From positions 1-32,808 of IMG/VR virus record IMGVR_UViG_3300032326_001552: a DNA stretch of 32,808 nt. One strand, 5' to 3'. This DNA is from a virus. The notes under the pieces are model-generated. The model had not been told where the DNA came from. It saw only the letters and a list, made by a program, of their open reading frames with translations, and ran no database searches. The position numbers and the translations under genes are program-made. Positions 4,836-32,808 of the stretch are shown piece after piece. How positions within the stretch are numbered: the first letter of the stretch is position 1; the number at the start of each line of letters is the position of its first letter.

Positions 4836-6575
4836 ATGACACAGATCGCCCGCATCATCATCGTTTTCGGCCTGCTCATCAGTGCGCTCCACGCCCAAAC
4901 CAAGAGCGTGATCAAGAACGTCAACGGTAACACCATCACCGAATCGCTCACCATCGGCGCAGGCAAGACCCTCACCATCGCCAGCGGTGCCAGCATCGTC
5001 GCCGCCAATGGCAGCACCCTCACCGGCTTTGGTGGCAGTGTCACTAGCGTTGCGTTGTCGTTACCCTCCATCTTCAGCGTCACTGGCTCGCCGGTCACCG
5101 AGAGTGGCACACTCACCGGCACACTCGCCACACAATCTGCCAACCGCGTTTTCGCCGGTCCATTAAGCGGCGCTGATGCCGCCCCCACTTTTCGCGCCCT
5201 GGTCGCCGCCGACATGCCGAATTTAAGCAGCACTTACCAACCACTCGCCACGCGGCTCACCACACTGTCTAGCCTCGACGATTTTTCCGGTGTGCTGACC
5301 AATAACGGCAGCGGCACCTTTAGCTATACACAGACCATGTCGGCGGTGGGAGAACTTACCAACGGCGTGGCTGGAAAAATTCCCGTCTTTGAGACCGCTG
5401 GCGTGCTCAATGCTGGGATTTTCCAGGCCAACGGCCTTTTTGGTTCGCGTCCTTTTTCCCAATTGAGCGCAGTGGGACTCACCATATTGCAGCAGGACGG
5501 CGTAGGCCTCCTCCAAGCAGGAACGCTCACGACCAACCGCACCTGGACCCTGCCAAACAAAAGCGGCACCGTGGCGATGACCAGCGACATCACCGGCACG
5601 AACAGCGGCACCAATACGGGTGACCAAACCATCACGCTGACAGGTGACATCACCGGCTCTGGCAGTGGGAGCTTTGCCACCACACTCGCCAACAGTGGCG
5701 TGACCGCTGGCAGCTACACCAACACCAGCCTAACCGTAGATGCAAAGGGTCGCATCACCTCGGCGAGCAATGGCAGCGGCGGCGGCCTCACCATTGGCAC
5801 CACGACCATCACCGGTGGCACGGCTGGCAGGCTCCTCACTAGCGGCGCGACGGTGGGAGAGCTGACGCTCGGCAGCGGCTTGAGCACCTGGCTCGGCACA
5901 CCAAGCAGCACCAATTTGCGCAGTGCGCTGACCGACGAGACTGGCAGTGGTGCTGCCGTGTTTGCGACCTCTCCAACCCTAGTCACACCGGTGCTAGGGG
6001 TAGCATCGGCAACTGATCTTTCAACTTCCGGTCGTTTTTTTGGTGCGTCTGAGCCGGGTTACCCGCAATTCACAGAGACAGGCTACCCAGGCAACGGCAT
6101 GCGGGTCTATTCTGACCGCCTTGATTTCTGGATCGGGTCGTCAGTCCACTTAACAATACAGGCGGGGGCATTTAATGTGCCCACACTTACATGGACCGCT
6201 TCAAACGTGAGCTTATCGGCTACGTCAGACGGTGCTGGGCGATTAGTTCAAAAGTCCGGCACGTCCCCTATGAGCATCTCCGTTGCTAACACATACACTA
6301 GCTTCACGAACAAGGAAGAATTTGAAATCGGCTGGGTCGGAAACTCGAACGTCTGTCGGCTCAGGCCGATCAAAGGCAGCGGTGGTGGAAGCTCACGCAA
6401 TGCTGAATTTCACACAACCGAAACCGGTGTGAATTGGGGCAGTGGCAGTGGGTCTCCAGAAGGTGTCCGCACGGCACCAGTCGGCTCATTATACACACGC
6501 ACCGATGGCGGATCGAACACAACGCTCTATGTCAAAGAGTCCGGCACGGGAAACACCGGCTGGGTGGCCAAGTAA
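4836..6575 (+). CDS. Tail fibre / receptor-binding-like protein with N-terminal signal peptide
   Basis: This 579-residue protein is rich in Gly, Ser and Thr. It contains short beta repeats typical of phage fibres: NTGDQTITLTGDITGSGSG followed by a TVDAKGRITSASNG-like motif, and an upstream LPNKSGTVAMTSDITG segment. These motifs are well known in tail-fibre and needle proteins. It begins with MTQIARIIIVFGLLISALHAQ, a convincing Sec signal peptide with predicted cleavage after AHAQ-type residues. That is odd for a protein assembled onto a virion in the cytoplasm. The last 170 residues are less repetitive and more varied in codon use, and could be the receptor-binding tip. Alternatives are a lysogen-expressed surface adhesin, or a membrane-held assembly intermediate. 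Confidence 0.65.
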   Translation: MTQIARIIIVFGLLISALHAQTKSVIKNVNGNTITESLTIGAGKTLTIASGASIVAANGSTLTGFGGSVTSVALSLPSIFSVTGSPVTESGTLTGTLATQSANRVFAGPLSGADAAPTFRALVAADMPNLSSTYQPLATRLTTLSSLDDFSGVLTNNGSGTFSYTQTMSAVGELTNGVAGKIPVFETAGVLNAGIFQANGLFGSRPFSQLSAVGLTILQQDGVGLLQAGTLTTNRTWTLPNKSGTVAMTSDITGTNSGTNTGDQTITLTGDITGSGSGSFATTLANSGVTAGSYTNTSLTVDAKGRITSASNGSGGGLTIGTTTITGGTAGRLLTSGATVGELTLGSGLSTWLGTPSSTNLRSALTDETGSGAAVFATSPTLVTPVLGVASATDLSTSGRFFGASEPGYPQFTETGYPGNGMRVYSDRLDFWIGSSVHLTIQAGAFNVPTLTWTASNVSLSATSDGAGRLVQKSGTSPMSISVANTYTSFTNKEEFEIGWVGNSNVCRLRPIKGSGGGSSRNAEFHTTETGVNWGSGSGSPEGVRTAPVGSLYTRTDGGSNTTLYVKESGTGNTGWVAK

Positions 6576-7331: not shown

Positions 7332-7700
7332 ATGAAAAACTACCGCACCACCCTCATCGGGGCCGCTCTCGCTGGCCTTTCGTTCCTGGCCATTTATCAA
7401 GGCAACGGCGGCGACCTGGCCCACTGGCAGCAGTGGCTCATCCCCGTCACCATCGCCATCCTGGGCTACGTCGCCAAAGACGCAGGTGTCACCGGCTCCC
7501 TCAAGCTGCTCCTCGCCAGCCTCTGCCTGCTCACGCTGCCGAGTTGCACGACCACCGCCAATGGCGGTAAAGCCTTCCTCGGCCTCAGCTCACCCCAGTG
7601 GCTCGGCATCGGCCAAGATGCCGCCCGCTCCGCCATGCAGAGTGCCGTGATCGGCTACAGCCAACGGCGGCTCGTGGTGGATGTGACCAGTGGAAAATGA
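7332..7700 (+). CDS. Holin-like membrane protein continuous with a lipoprotein-type segment
   Basis: This protein has 122 residues. Residues 1-55 contain two hydrophobic helices (about 8-24 and 36-50), and the second ends in GYVAKDAGVTG, a pattern I associate with small phage holins. Residues 56-72 form a third hydrophobic stretch ending in LTLPSC, a lipobox-like site with Cys72. A TTTANGG linker and a roughly 40-residue tail follow. The lipoprotein part has no start codon of its own in frame, so the two parts appear fused. If processed at Cys72, the tail would be an o-spanin-sized lipoprotein. The Pro at -2 makes the lipobox imperfect. The gene lies directly before the endolysin. Confidence 0.55.
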   Translation: MKNYRTTLIGAALAGLSFLAIYQGNGGDLAHWQQWLIPVTIAILGYVAKDAGVTGSLKLLLASLCLLTLPSCTTTANGGKAFLGLSSPQWLGIGQDAARSAMQSAVIGYSQRRLVVDVTSGK

Positions 7701-7710
7701 GCCAACGCCC

Positions 7711-8274
7711 ATGAGCATCACCGGCGACCACTGGCTCGACTCCGCCCTGCGTCGTCCCATCGCAGGCGGCGCAAAAATGCCTGTGCGTCGTTTCCTCGTC
7801 ATCCATTTCACCGCCGGAGCCAGCGCCGAATCCTCGATCGAATTTTGGCGCACACCCGCCGCCAAAGGTGCCTCCGCTCACCTCGTCATCGACCGCGACG
7901 GCACCGTTTATCAGACGCGCCCTTTTGACCGCACCTGTGGCCATGCAGGCGTGTCCCAATGGCAGGGGCACAAAAACCTCAACGCCTGCACCCTCGGTAT
8001 CGAACTCGCAAACGCTGGCGATGACGAGCGGCTCACAAAGCGATGGTCAAAGCATCCACCCATCGAAGCTCGGCACAAAAACGGCGGCCCAGAAAAGCAG
8101 TGGGAAGCCTACCCACTGGCCCAACTCGCCGCCTGCGAGCAAGTCGCCAAAGCCCTCGTCACTCGCTACAAGCTCGACGACATCGTCGGCCACGACGACA
8201 TCGCCCCAAGCAGGAAAAACGACCCCGGCCCGGCGTTCCCTATGGCATCCCTCCGGCAGTCATGTGGCTATTGA
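7711..8274 (+). CDS. Endolysin, N-acetylmuramoyl-L-alanine amidase (Amidase_2 family)
   Basis: The product of 187 residues from ATG 7711 cleaves the bond between muramic acid and L-Ala in peptidoglycan to release progeny. The Amidase_2 zinc site is visible: His32 in VIHFTAG, His161 in GHDDIAP and Asp171 in the DPGPAF motif. Glu98 in LGIELAN lies in the conserved core. Length matches single-domain phage amidases, and no separate wall-binding domain or signal peptide is present, so it needs a holin. A GTG at 7690, overlapping the previous gene, is an alternative in-frame start adding seven residues. The 3' end overlaps the convergent integrase gene by 15 bp. Confidence 0.88.
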   Translation: MSITGDHWLDSALRRPIAGGAKMPVRRFLVIHFTAGASAESSIEFWRTPAAKGASAHLVIDRDGTVYQTRPFDRTCGHAGVSQWQGHKNLNACTLGIELANAGDDERLTKRWSKHPPIEARHKNGGPEKQWEAYPLAQLAACEQVAKALVTRYKLDDIVGHDDIAPSRKNDPGPAFPMASLRQSCGY

Positions 8275-9330
8275 ACGGGGATCACCACGAGATGGGCGAC
8301 GAGTCACCTTCGACCACGAGGCATTGATCTCGTCGTCCTGCGGTATGAGATGCCCATAGGTGTCCTCGACCACCTCCACGGTGTCACCCAACCACTTGGC
8401 GACTTTGTAGAGCGACACCCCCTTCGACACGAGGAGCGAGGCAAACGTTCGCCGCAAATCGTGGAACGTGATGTCGAGCTGGCATCTCTCCACCAACGCG
8501 TCAAACGCCTTTCGAAAATCGAAACGGTAGCGGTATTTCCCATGCACCACCTTGGGCGCGAGCATGAACGGCTTTTGCAGTTTGTATTCATCCAGCAACC
8601 ACGCCCGAAACTCATCCGTCAGCGGCACCGTGCGATTGTCGCGAGACTTTGGCTGAAACGTCGTGGTCGCTTGCACATGGATCAAGCCCTCCTCCAAGTC
8701 GAACCATTCCGGCCTGGCCTCAATGATCTCCAATTTACGCAGCCCAGCGTGCAGCCCGCAAAAAAGCGCAAACTTCAACCCTGGCTCCGTGCATTCGTCG
8801 ATCAGTCGCCGCGCATCCGCCGGCATCAAAAAAACCTTCCGCGACCGCATCCGCAGTTTCGGGATCGTGATGCCTGTCGTCGGGTCCCGTGAAACGATGC
8901 CTCTCTCCATGAGCCAAGCAAACCACCAGCGCACCTGGTTAAGGTAACTCACGGCAGTGTGCTCATGCCGCTTCAGCCTGCCCTCAAACCATCGCACGCA
9001 AGCCGTCGGGCCAATGTGCCTCGGTGAGGTCGCCCCCGTGTGCAGCGCAAAACCTTTGAGCACATAACGCCGAGAGGAAAGGGTCGAGGCCGACAACCCC
9101 TCACTGGCCTTCGCCGCGAGATAGCGGTCGATCTCCGCAACGCAGGAGCCAGCCTCCTCCCGCAAGCGTGGACCCTCCCGCAGTCGCAGCTTATCCGCCG
9201 CCACCATCGCCTCCGCGAGATCCCGCGTGCCGAGCGACTGACGCTCCTGCGCTCCACCCGGCACCGGCGTCCAGCGCAGCCACCAGGTCAATTTTTGCCG
9301 ATACAGTCCCCGAGGTATGCTAGCAGTCAT
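8260..9330 (-). CDS. int: Tyrosine recombinase, phage integrase
   Basis: This protein of 356 residues catalyses site-specific integration and excision. Residues 60-155 are a SAM-like core-binding domain and residues 165-335 the catalytic domain. Catalytic residues are visible: Arg198 (HAGLRKLE), Lys228 in a QPKSRDNRTVPL beta hairpin, His290 and Arg293 (TFHDLRRTF), and the Tyr325 nucleophile (EDTYGHL). The position usually filled by a second His (LGH) is Asp316 here (WLGD). The N-terminal 60 residues resemble an arm-binding segment. The start overlaps TATGCTA repeats that look like arm-type sites, so Int may repress itself. attP lies just upstream. The gene converges on, and overlaps, the endolysin by 15 bp. 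Confidence 0.93.
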   Translation of the reverse strand: MTASIPRGLYRQKLTWWLRWTPVPGGAQERQSLGTRDLAEAMVAADKLRLREGPRLREEAGSCVAEIDRYLAAKASEGLSASTLSSRRYVLKGFALHTGATSPRHIGPTACVRWFEGRLKRHEHTAVSYLNQVRWWFAWLMERGIVSRDPTTGITIPKLRMRSRKVFLMPADARRLIDECTEPGLKFALFCGLHAGLRKLEIIEARPEWFDLEEGLIHVQATTTFQPKSRDNRTVPLTDEFRAWLLDEYKLQKPFMLAPKVVHGKYRYRFDFRKAFDALVERCQLDITFHDLRRTFASLLVSKGVSLYKVAKWLGDTVEVVEDTYGHLIPQDDEINASWSKVTRRPSRGDPRSIAT

Positions 9331-24098: not shown

Positions 24099-24123
24099 TT
24101 TGACATGCGCCCGCCAGCATGTC
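24099..24123 (+). promoter_or_regulatory. WTTGACA element with start-codon hairpin
   Basis: TTTGACA at 24099-24105 lies 13 nt before ATG 24119. GACATGC (24102-24108) pairs perfectly with GCATGTC (24117-24123) around GCCCGCCA. The ATG is inside the 3' arm. This is one of the clearest members of the set. Confidence 0.6.
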
Positions 24124-25174
24124 CCGCAAGACCTGGTTCACCATTCGCAATGCCGCCTCCGCCGAAGCCCCCGCTGAAATCTCTATCCACGACGAGATCG
24201 GCGCATGGGGTGTCAGTGCCAAAGACTTCCTCGCCCAGCTCCGCAGCATCGCGGCTGCGACTCCGATCACTCTCTCCATCCACTCGCCTGGCGGTGAGGT
24301 CTTCGATGGTCTTGCCATCTATCACGCGCTGAAGGCACGCGGCAACGTCACCGTGCGCATCGAAGGTCTCGCCGCCTCCATGGCCTCCGTCATCGCCATG
24401 GCAGGCACGCGGATCGAGATGCCACGCAATGCGTTCATGATGATCCACAACCCCAGCGGCTTTGCGGTGGGTGACTCTGCCGACATGCGCCAGCTCGCCG
24501 ACCTGCTCGACAAGATCAAAGGCAGCCTCCTCGCCGCTTATCGTGAGCGCACGAAAAAGAGCGACGAAGACCTCACCGCCATGATGGACGCCGAGACCTG
24601 GCTGACAGGTGAAGAAGCCGTCGAGCACGGTTTTGCCGATGCCACCAGCGACGAAGTCGCCCTCAGTGCCTCCGCTTTCAAGACTGCCCGCATCACCGCC
24701 GCGCTGCGTCATGTGCCGAGTGCCCTCTTTGACATCGCGCCGCCACCGTCGCCATCGCGCACTCCCACCCCCATGAAAGCACTCCTCGCCCTCGCCTCAC
24801 TCGTCGGCATCACCGTCAAGGGTGATGAAACTGAAGACCAGCTCACCGCTGCCATCACCGCGCACAAGCCGCAGTCTCCCAACGTCGTCATCGACTTCGA
24901 AGACGCCGCTGTGAAAGCCGCCTTCGCTGCCAGCATCACCGAAGCCACGAAGGACGACAAAGCCAAGCTCACCGCGCTGGAAACTGAGCTCGCCAAAATC
25001 ACCGCCCTGCTCACCAACGGAGCCGCCGGTGCTGCCGGTGGCAACGCTCCCATCCAGGGTGCTCAAGGTGGCAGCAGCACCCCCGTCAACACCATGACCC
25101 GCGCCGCCTTCAACCAACTCCCCCACGCCGAGCGAAACGCCTTCATGGCAGCCAAAGGCAAGCTCGAAGACTGA
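24119..25174 (+). CDS. ClpP-type head maturation protease with scaffold-like C-terminus
   Basis: This 351-residue protein trims the head proteins. Residues 1-180 are a ClpP-like S14 protease. Ser87 lies in GLAASMAS, His110 in FMMIHNPSG, and acidic residues near 157-159 (DAETWLTGEEA) complete the site. The SIHSPGGEVFDG segment forms the family's glycine-rich loop. Residues 219-351 are a Lys/Ala-rich helical segment and a flexible Gly/Ala linker, as in scaffold proteins. The gene sits between portal and coat genes, as lambda C/Nu3 does. An in-frame ATG at 24773 could make the scaffold part alone. Confidence 0.85.
   Translation: MSRKTWFTIRNAASAEAPAEISIHDEIGAWGVSAKDFLAQLRSIAAATPITLSIHSPGGEVFDGLAIYHALKARGNVTVRIEGLAASMASVIAMAGTRIEMPRNAFMMIHNPSGFAVGDSADMRQLADLLDKIKGSLLAAYRERTKKSDEDLTAMMDAETWLTGEEAVEHGFADATSDEVALSASAFKTARITAALRHVPSALFDIAPPPSPSRTPTPMKALLALASLVGITVKGDETEDQLTAAITAHKPQSPNVVIDFEDAAVKAAFAASITEATKDDKAKLTALETELAKITALLTNGAAGAAGGNAPIQGAQGGSSTPVNTMTRAAFNQLPHAERNAFMAAKGKLED
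24773..25174 (+). CDS. Possible nested scaffold protein from an internal start
   Basis: ATG 24773 is in the same frame as the protease gene and would give a 133-residue product beginning MKALLALASLVGITV. A Pro/Ser linker encoded just before it marks the domain boundary. Lambda Nu3 is made this way from inside C. The upstream CTCCCACCCCC stretch resembles the G-poor leaders of other late genes. No Shine-Dalgarno is present, so this is plausible but unproven. Confidence 0.4.
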   Translation: MKALLALASLVGITVKGDETEDQLTAAITAHKPQSPNVVIDFEDAAVKAAFAASITEATKDDKAKLTALETELAKITALLTNGAAGAAGGNAPIQGAQGGSSTPVNTMTRAAFNQLPHAERNAFMAAKGKLED

Positions 25175-31260: not shown

Positions 31261-31728
31261 ATGCACCTCCCCACCGACCCCGCACCCACGACCTCACCGC
31301 CGCCGGTGAACCTCACCGACACCGCGCCACTCATCACCGCTGAGCAGCGCGAGACCGACTTCAATCGCCTCTTCGCCTGGCATGGCGTCGAGATCGCCAT
31401 CACGCTCACCAACGAACTTTATTACCGTGAGCTCCGCGTCCACATGAATGCGCCCGCCTTGGGCTCATATGATACCATGGGCGACTTCGCGCCCGAGGCC
31501 GCCCGCGTCATTTATTGTGCGCACCTCGAAGCCGCCGCCATCCGCCAGCTCCGGCTCATGAGTGCCGAGCTGCAAATCGCCATGCATGATGCTTGGGTCC
31601 TCAAAAACATCGCCCTCCATGAGATCGCCGCTGTGTCGCGTCTCGCCCAAGAAATGCAGGAATGCGTGGCGCGTGCCCGTGCCTCCGTTTTGCCCACCGG
31701 TGACAGCGTTGACGGCTCGGGAAACTAG
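31261..31728 (+). CDS. Tail assembly chaperone, G-type (upstream frame of frameshift pair)
   Basis: This protein of 155 residues lies just before the tape measure, where siphophages encode tail assembly chaperones that hold the tape measure unfolded. The N-terminal 35 residues are Pro/Thr-rich and the body is helical, with Leu- and Ala-rich segments. Its last codons read TCG GGA AAC TAG. The heptamer GGGAAAC is in the X XXY YYZ phase that favours -1 slippage. A slip would bypass the TAG and enter the 31731 frame to give a G-GT fusion of about 207 residues. Confidence 0.7.
   Translation: MHLPTDPAPTTSPPPVNLTDTAPLITAEQRETDFNRLFAWHGVEIAITLTNELYYRELRVHMNAPALGSYDTMGDFAPEAARVIYCAHLEAAAIRQLRLMSAELQIAMHDAWVLKNIALHEIAAVSRLAQEMQECVARARASVLPTGDSVDGSGN
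31719..31725 (+). promoter_or_regulatory. GGGAAAC slippery heptamer for -1 ribosomal frameshifting
   Basis: The heptamer is read as TCG GGA AAC TAG in the upstream frame. After a -1 slip it continues GGG AAA CTA GCC ATG. A GCGAG/CTCGC stem (31747-31751, 31764-31768) starts 21 nt downstream and may stimulate slippage. The lambda G-GT site is GGGAAAG. Confidence 0.7.
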
Positions 31729-31730
31729 CC

Positions 31731-31883
31731 ATGCCACCCGTGACCTGCGAGATCATCTCCGACCTCGCTCAGCTCACCGGGTGGCAGGAAGCCACCATTC
31801 AAGACATGCCGCTGCATCGCGCCCTCTACTACCAGCTCAAAGCCGCCAACATTCGCGGCGTGATGTGTCAGTGGTCGCTTTGA
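31731..31883 (+). CDS. Tail assembly chaperone, GT-type extension (downstream frame)
   Basis: This short 50-codon frame lies in the -1 phase relative to the 31261 gene and begins 2 nt after its TAG. Its sequence, with ISDLAQLTGW, then IQDMPLHRALYYQ, resembles the T domain of siphophage chaperones, which has a Trp followed by a Met/Pro/Leu-rich helix. It is most likely translated as the end of a frameshift fusion. It also has its own ATG at 31731 but no ribosome-binding site. Its stop TGA is part of the next TTTGACA element. Confidence 0.65.
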   Translation: MPPVTCEIISDLAQLTGWQEATIQDMPLHRALYYQLKAANIRGVMCQWSL

Positions 31884-31916: not shown

Positions 31917-32808
31917 ATGGCAAACGACGCAACAGTCAAATTTGGCTACGACGGCACCGCGCTCAATCGCGGTCTCGCGCAGCAAGAAACCAAGCTCAAA
32001 GGCTTCGCCTCCACCACTGAGCGCAGCTTTCGCGGTGCCCAGGCAGCCATCGGGGGCCTCGGCCTCGGCATCCTGGCCCGCGAAGGTGTGCGCGTCGTCG
32101 CCGCCTTCGACCGCATGACGCGTGGCATGACCACACTCGAAGGCAGCGCCACGGGGGCCAAATTCCGCATGGACGAACTACGCGAGGCCTCGAAGCTCCC
32201 TGGCCTCGACTTCGAACAAGCGGTGCAGGGGGACATCCGCCTGCGCAGCGTCGGTGTCAGCGCTGAGCTTTCCAAGAAGGCGCTCATCGAGATGGGCAAT
32301 GCCCTCAGCCTCGCTGGTGGAACCTCCGCCGACCTCGATGGCGTGGTGCTGGCCCTCACGCAGATCATCAGCAAAGGCAAAGTCAGCGCGGAGGAAATCA
32401 ACCAGATCGCCGAGCGTGTGCCGCAGGTCCGCGCCGTCATGCAAGACATGTTCGGCACCGCCGACACCGAGACGCTGCAAAAGATGAACATCGACGCGGA
32501 GACCTTCGTCGCCACGCTCGTCGAAGGCTTCGGCAAGCTCGAGCGTGCGCAGGCCGGTCTCGATGAAAAGATGAACGACTTCAGCGCCTCCCTGCGAACC
32601 GCCTCCACGGCTTTGCTCGAAGGCCTCGTCGGCAAAGGCTCCGAAGGTTTGTCTCGCCTCGGAGGAGTGCTGGATGCCAACAACGACAAGCTGCGCGAAG
32701 CAGGTCAATGGCTCGGCAACACCGCCTCCGGCGTCGCGGAATGGTTTGTGAATGCCGGAGACGCCATCGGCTTCATGGCCTCAGATTTGATGCGTGCCAT
32801 CGGTTACA
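31917..32808 (+). CDS. Tail tape measure protein, N-terminal part (continues at 1-1013)
   Basis: The frame opens at ATG 31917, runs off the window end and continues in phase at position 3, giving 593 residues. Residues about 20-230 match the conserved tape measure domain of siphophages. They include VKFGYDGTALNRGLAQQE near the start, a GIGGLGLGILAREG-like helix, and a region with FDRMTRGMTTLEGSA. The KGKVSAEEINQIAERVP motif is widely conserved in this domain. The gene follows the chaperone pair, as expected. The window ends inside this gene because of where the circle was opened. Confidence 0.88.
   Translation, partial: MANDATVKFGYDGTALNRGLAQQETKLKGFASTTERSFRGAQAAIGGLGLGILAREGVRVVAAFDRMTRGMTTLEGSATGAKFRMDELREASKLPGLDFEQAVQGDIRLRSVGVSAELSKKALIEMGNALSLAGGTSADLDGVVLALTQIISKGKVSAEEINQIAERVPQVRAVMQDMFGTADTETLQKMNIDAETFVATLVEGFGKLERAQAGLDEKMNDFSASLRTASTALLEGLVGKGSEGLSRLGGVLDANNDKLREAGQWLGNTASGVAEWFVNAGDAIGFMASDLMRAIGY
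32686..32808. repeat. Terminal direct repeat, right copy
   Basis: It is identical to bases 1-123. It shows that the sequence closes on itself. Confidence 0.95.

Follow-up and report, generated by a model that had tools for sequence, protein, structure and literature searches.

Predicted lambda-type tail chaperone frameshifting at a slippery site abutted by a stop codon in a lineage of tailed phages

A temperate phage genome recovered from IMG/VR very probably produces its tail chaperone pair by programmed −1 frameshifting of the lambda G/GT type on the heptamer GGGAAAC, with a downstream hairpin and an immediately adjacent stop codon helping the shift. Lambda-type G/GT frameshifting is itself of a known kind; the stop codon abutting the slip site is the less ordinary part. 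As far as sequence comparison reaches, the layout of slip site, stop and hairpin is kept by about 75 distinct relatives despite changes in its letters. We infer the occurrence and the rate of slippage, as well as the chaperone function, from these comparisons and from gene order.

Results

The window, that is, the whole 32,808-nt stretch of DNA analysed here, carries an exact 123-bp terminal direct repeat (positions 1-123 are identical to 32686-32808), which implies a genome that is circular or circularly permuted and has 32,685 unique bases. The record ends interrupt the tape measure gene: its 5′ part occupies 31917-32808 on the plus strand and the gene continues at 1-1013, for a product of about 593 aa once joined. 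It matches PF20155 (TMP_3; E 3e-19) and several PHROG tape-measure families. On its annotation, the window is a temperate tailed phage. Among its genes are a tyrosine integrase (8260-9330, minus strand), a ClpP-like protease adjoining the portal (24119-25174) and an amidase (7690-8274), and no tRNA genes were found in the window.

The G open reading frame (31261-31728, plus strand) encodes a zero-frame product of 155 aa (17.0 kDa) that ends SGN-stop and shares 49-98% identity with its counterparts in 13 relatives. Its final codons are TCG GGA AAC TAG, so that the slippery heptamer G GGA AAC (31719-31725, plus strand) lies in X XXY YYZ phase and is abutted by the zero-frame stop (31726-31728, plus strand), exactly as an earlier reading of this DNA (hereafter the sequence-only reading) had described it. 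The −1 frame stays open over 31713-31880, the preceding TGA lying at 31710-31712, which leaves a workable interval of only about 15 nt for a −1 shift, and GGGAAAC is the sole slippery heptamer inside this interval. Following the slip, the −1 frame would be read as CTA GCC ATG CCA and onwards to the TGA at 31881-31883. This T extension (31725-31883, plus strand) contains the conserved motif TGW..E.I...PLHRALYYQLK, and the predicted GT fusion has a computed size of 207 aa and 22.9 kDa, in agreement with the roughly 207 residues proposed earlier. The T-like end claimed at that time is present, but it measures 52 residues after the slip, the 50 residues given for it being the count from the ATG at 31731. 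The claim that the G/T pair precedes the tape measure also holds, given the tape measure gene start at 31917. For the window phage, the predicted peptides are ASVLPTGDSVDGSGN at the C terminus of G and ASVLPTGDSVDGSGNLAMPPVTCEIISDLAQLTGWQEATIQDMPLHR at the G-T junction, and the junction peptide of the predicted fusion begins ASVLPTGDSVDGSGNLAMPPVTC.

The heptamer is not rare by itself in the window, where it occurs 3 times against 3.6 expected by chance; what gives it weight is the codon phase, the location and the fact that it does not vary in any relative identified by GT homology. Nor is it new as a G-T site, contrary to the sequence-only reading, which had called it unusual: haloarchaeal viruses use the same g-t heptamers, GGGAAAC (in HCTV-1) and AAAAAAC (PMC5009743), although their hosts are archaea.

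A close set of relatives was assembled from IMG/VR, comprising 11 GT-bearing contigs found with a tape-measure query (L001-L011) and two more added by T-domain and G queries (L040 and L052). Conservation of the heptamer, on which the sequence-only reading had let the frameshift stand or fall, was examined in this set: every one of the 13 GT-level relatives has GGGAAAC in this phase, with identity declining to 49% in G and 56% in T. The abutting TAG is equally present in all of them except L011, where TCG takes its place and frame 0 extends 15 nt further. Substitutions in T are mostly synonymous in its own frame (dS 0.84 and dN 0.27 between the window and L010), with dN/dS about 0.3-0.6 between lineages; T is under purifying selection in its own (−1) frame. 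Six relatives (L004, L005, L007, L009, L010 and L011) carry a small membrane-protein-like extra open reading frame (for example, one starting MNELQPYINGPIGVTLAFLALVFVLLTILMPYYVFVCAREIMRTRK) between T and the tape measure gene, which the window lacks. In two relatives detected through the tape measure only (L012 and L028), no G/T counterpart was recognised.

The assignment of G and T as tail chaperones is based on gene order and frameshift architecture, since neither protein has an annotated homologue and G has no recognisable fold match. Specifically, G and T matched none of the Pfam and PHROG chaperone families, a PDB sequence search for G/T homologues gave no match, and nothing was found in GT and T searches of genome contigs. 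AlphaFold pLDDT was 70 for G and 63 for T, and a Foldseek search with the mediocre fold model of G gave no significant match in PDB and BFVD. One distant T member weakly matched phrog_1756, a ‘tail protein’ (E 0.004).

For a wider scan, a T alignment extended to group II (L054-L059) and the cultured Akkermansia phage Moulinsart (L060) served as the query and gave 80 loci; the family, drawn from IMG/VR and Moulinsart, comprises 78 distinct GT sequences. Because the query was a protein, neither the letters of the heptamer nor those of the stop were selected for. XXXAAAC, with GGG, CCC or AAA as its first triplet, is present in 76 of the 78 distinct T-domain relatives. The zero-frame stop abuts the heptamer in 67 of the 78, as TAG, TAA or TGA; it follows after one further codon in 8 and after 15 nt in 1, and lies 27-30 nt away in 2. 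The latter two rows (loci L137-L140) are also the only AAAAAAG members, and besides them a far zero-frame stop occurs only in L011. The placement of the slip site right before a stop, which the sequence-only reading had regarded as notable, is indeed noteworthy and is conserved. At least 10 heptamer changes and at least 17 stop-state changes were counted on a tree of 68 group-II rows, a quick tree with several long branches poorly placed.

Overlapping G and −1 T open reading frames upstream of the tape measure gene also occur in L054 and in Moulinsart. In Moulinsart (ON453896, 4549-5249), the annotation lists G and T as distinct hypothetical proteins (WAK79076.1 and WAK79077.1), and the annotated T start at 5037 omits the first T residues. 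The junction reads A AAA AAC TAG and indicates one frameshifted GT. The only known host within the family is that of Moulinsart, Akkermansia. Elsewhere in the family, a 79-kb record (L143) containing L092 encodes a type I restriction-modification methyltransferase and a specificity gene.

Downstream of the heptamer, a conserved RNA hairpin is predicted, the 5′ arm of which (31733-31740) starts 7 nt after the heptamer and pairs with a 3′ arm at 31778-31785 (both on the plus strand). Upper helices of the same hairpin span 31742-31775 on this strand (31742-31743 with 31774-31775, 31747-31750 with 31765-31768, and 31753-31754 with 31761-31762), for a total of 16 pairs, and 99% of the cells are paired across 12 sequences. 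The 8-bp stem is fully paired (8/8) in all 12, with compensatory changes at two pairs (GC to CG and CG to UA), and its 100% of paired cells compares with no more than 52% in slid controls. The downstream fold is more stable than its dinucleotide shuffles (z of −4.5 in the window and between −2.6 and −5.6 in relatives). When T is recoded synonymously, pairing of all eight positions has p values of 0.006-0.018 per sequence, which are not independent since the 12 sequences represent about five lineages. When recoding followed genome codon usage, the energy of the whole hairpin was weakly significant in the window (69/1000) and not significant in L040. Energy alone being weak, the case for the hairpin is built on pair conservation and covariation. 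An Rfam search gave no match.

In group II the 5′ arm likewise begins 7 nt from the heptamer, and for most rows its partner is a near arm whose end lies 43 nt past the heptamer. A far arm ending about 60 nt downstream, formed by the T codons ACN GGN TGG that also serve in group I, gives the best pairing in L067, L068, L105, L107-L110, L112, L113, L116 and L118. Across the near-arm alignment of 55 distant rows, one pair is variously CG (16 rows), GC (16), AU (8), GU (5), UA (4) or UG (2), and the near-arm covariation score is 0.272, whereas shuffles score 0.114 and slid controls no more than 0.071. Some group II loci, such as L070 and L096, have a 5′ arm able to form either hairpin, a dual capacity that may represent a switch or an evolutionary intermediate. 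Many relatives also carry a Shine-Dalgarno-like element upstream (for example, AGGAGG in L004). Since its distance varies and it is absent upstream in the window, we do not claim it as a stimulator.

Three other explanations can be envisioned for these trends. T could be a separate small gene, re-initiated after the TAG at the ATG at 31731 (product starting TAGCCATG), with the heptamer being incidental. The window group does have this ATG two bases after the stop, and taken alone its evidence is compatible with separate initiation. Across relatives, however, the ATG is replaced by TTG (L004, L005, L007, L010 and L011) or is absent altogether: the T frames of L040 (CTA GCC TGC CCG ...) and L052 (CTA GCT GCC CCA ...) contain no ATG, GTG or TTG ahead of the conserved TGW motif, which makes separate initiation of the conserved T part impossible there with standard starts, and 33 of the 78 distinct relatives similarly lack a start codon in this segment. 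In addition, the ATG of the window overlaps the base of the stable stem, and a heptamer that would be irrelevant to re-initiation is invariant. We consequently regard a separate T gene as very improbable. Even more remote is a fusion generated by transcriptional rather than ribosomal slippage, which would be of the same kind and could draw on the six-A run of the AAAAAAC members: GGGAAAC sites have no single-base run longer than 3, the codon phase is fixed, and the 7-nt spacing of the hairpin fits a ribosome.

The third explanation accepts the frameshift and concerns only the stop, which would be a by-product of T needing a Leu after AAA, because the codons CTA and CTG generate TAG, TAA or TGA in frame 0. 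Residue 1 of T is indeed always Leu in XXXAAAC members. Yet CTA, which makes up 8% of the CTN codons in these phages, is used in 41 of 76, and among 59 distinct T N-termini synonymous recoding of T predicts 11.3 abutting stops against 51 observed (19% against 86%), and 13.1 stops within one codon of the heptamer against 58 observed. Members without an abutting stop nearly all have one a codon later, and the identity of the stop switches repeatedly while its place stays constant (for example, TGA in L084 and TAG in L093). The AAAAAAG members are devoid of this Leu, suggesting that the residue follows from the nucleotides rather than the reverse. A by-product is thus unlikely, if less so than the two explanations above; on these counts, the abutting position of the stop is maintained by selection.

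Discussion

Under the frameshift model, most ribosomes would translate G and terminate at the TAG, with a minority slipping by −1 on G GGA AAC as the tRNAs for Gly and Asn shift their pairing to GGG and AAA. The slipped ribosomes would continue through CTA GCC ATG... to complete the 207-aa GT. By analogy with lambda, G would form a coat on the tape measure protein, and the T part of the less numerous GT copies would recruit the tail tube protein. Both the hairpin, beginning 7 nt past the heptamer, and the stop codon that immediately follows the heptamer would favour slippage. With less certainty, much of this slippage may occur when AAC occupies the P site and the stop has entered the A site, where a release factor would compete.

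The reference system is lambda gpG/gpGT, in which a low-rate −1 shift adds the T domain to the chaperone (reviewed in PMC5009743). In both systems an X XXY YYZ heptamer for the −1 shift lies close to the 3′ end of a small gene that precedes the tape measure gene, and the long form, predicted in the present case, is a T fusion, but no sequence homology was detected between lambda G/T and the pair described here. Lambda also differs in its GGGAAAG heptamer and in a G stop located 15 nt downstream, whereas here XXXAAAC abuts the stop and is followed by a covarying hairpin. The stop of tail chaperone genes usually lies at a mean distance of 26 nt (actinobacteriophage set) or 36 nt (Xu set) (PMC10885494). 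Rous sarcoma and barley yellow dwarf viruses also have a zero-frame stop immediately behind the heptamer (PMC4373837); these are eukaryotic RNA viruses whose heptamers and stimulators differ, and altering the stop of Rous sarcoma virus reportedly did not matter (PMC4373837). Another comparison is the insA-insB′ site of IS1 (AAAAAAC), which also shifts by −1 in bacteria at a heptamer ending in AAC, with an efficiency of about 2% (PMC12428005), but it serves a transposase gene and an unrelated protein. Finally, the ‘shifty stop’ of prfB likewise places a stop in the A site, where frameshifting competes with the release factor (PMC5009743), although that shift is +1 and autoregulatory, in contrast to the −1 and structural case considered here.

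Several observations count against the frameshift reading, among them the missing chaperone-family and fold matches, the ATG of the window group and the inconsistent Shine-Dalgarno-like element. In addition, XXXAAAC belongs to a weaker class of shift sites in E. coli, where heptamers ending in AAC are poorer −1 sites than those ending in AAG; the authors suggest lower tolerance of the non-cognate pairing that results when the AAC tRNA moves to AAA (PMC4066793). Since AAC in second position serves −1 shifting poorly in bacteria, slippage may compete with the release factor, and the near-invariant AAC together with the abutting stop suggests slippage after translocation, in competition with termination. 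There is a precedent in E. coli, where RF2 competed with slippage when a stop followed the HIV-1 site, implying that the stop had been in the A site first (PMC4373837). The AAG-type rows, with their distant stop, fit this idea, albeit as a single lineage. It is conceivable, though we hold it only tentatively and as the less probable option, that the whole lineage of bacterial phages uses a −1 ‘shifty stop’, with AAC shifting poorly in the A site and slippage therefore occurring mainly after translocation, once AAC is in the P site and the A site holds the stop, against competition from RF1 or RF2.

T domains of this kind can be annotated as separate hypothetical genes, as in Moulinsart. More generally, tail chaperone genes frequently use frameshifting, but typically with a stop tens of bases past the slip site, and a lineage in which the stop is attached to a heptamer class that performs poorly in E. 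coli offers a natural experiment on the timing of −1 slippage and on the competition by termination. The family supplies matched site variants for this purpose, with three heptamers, three stops and two hairpin shapes. If the −1 ‘shifty stop’ is real, the speed of termination would set the G:GT ratio and hence tail assembly, in lineages that switch among UAG, UAA and UGA.
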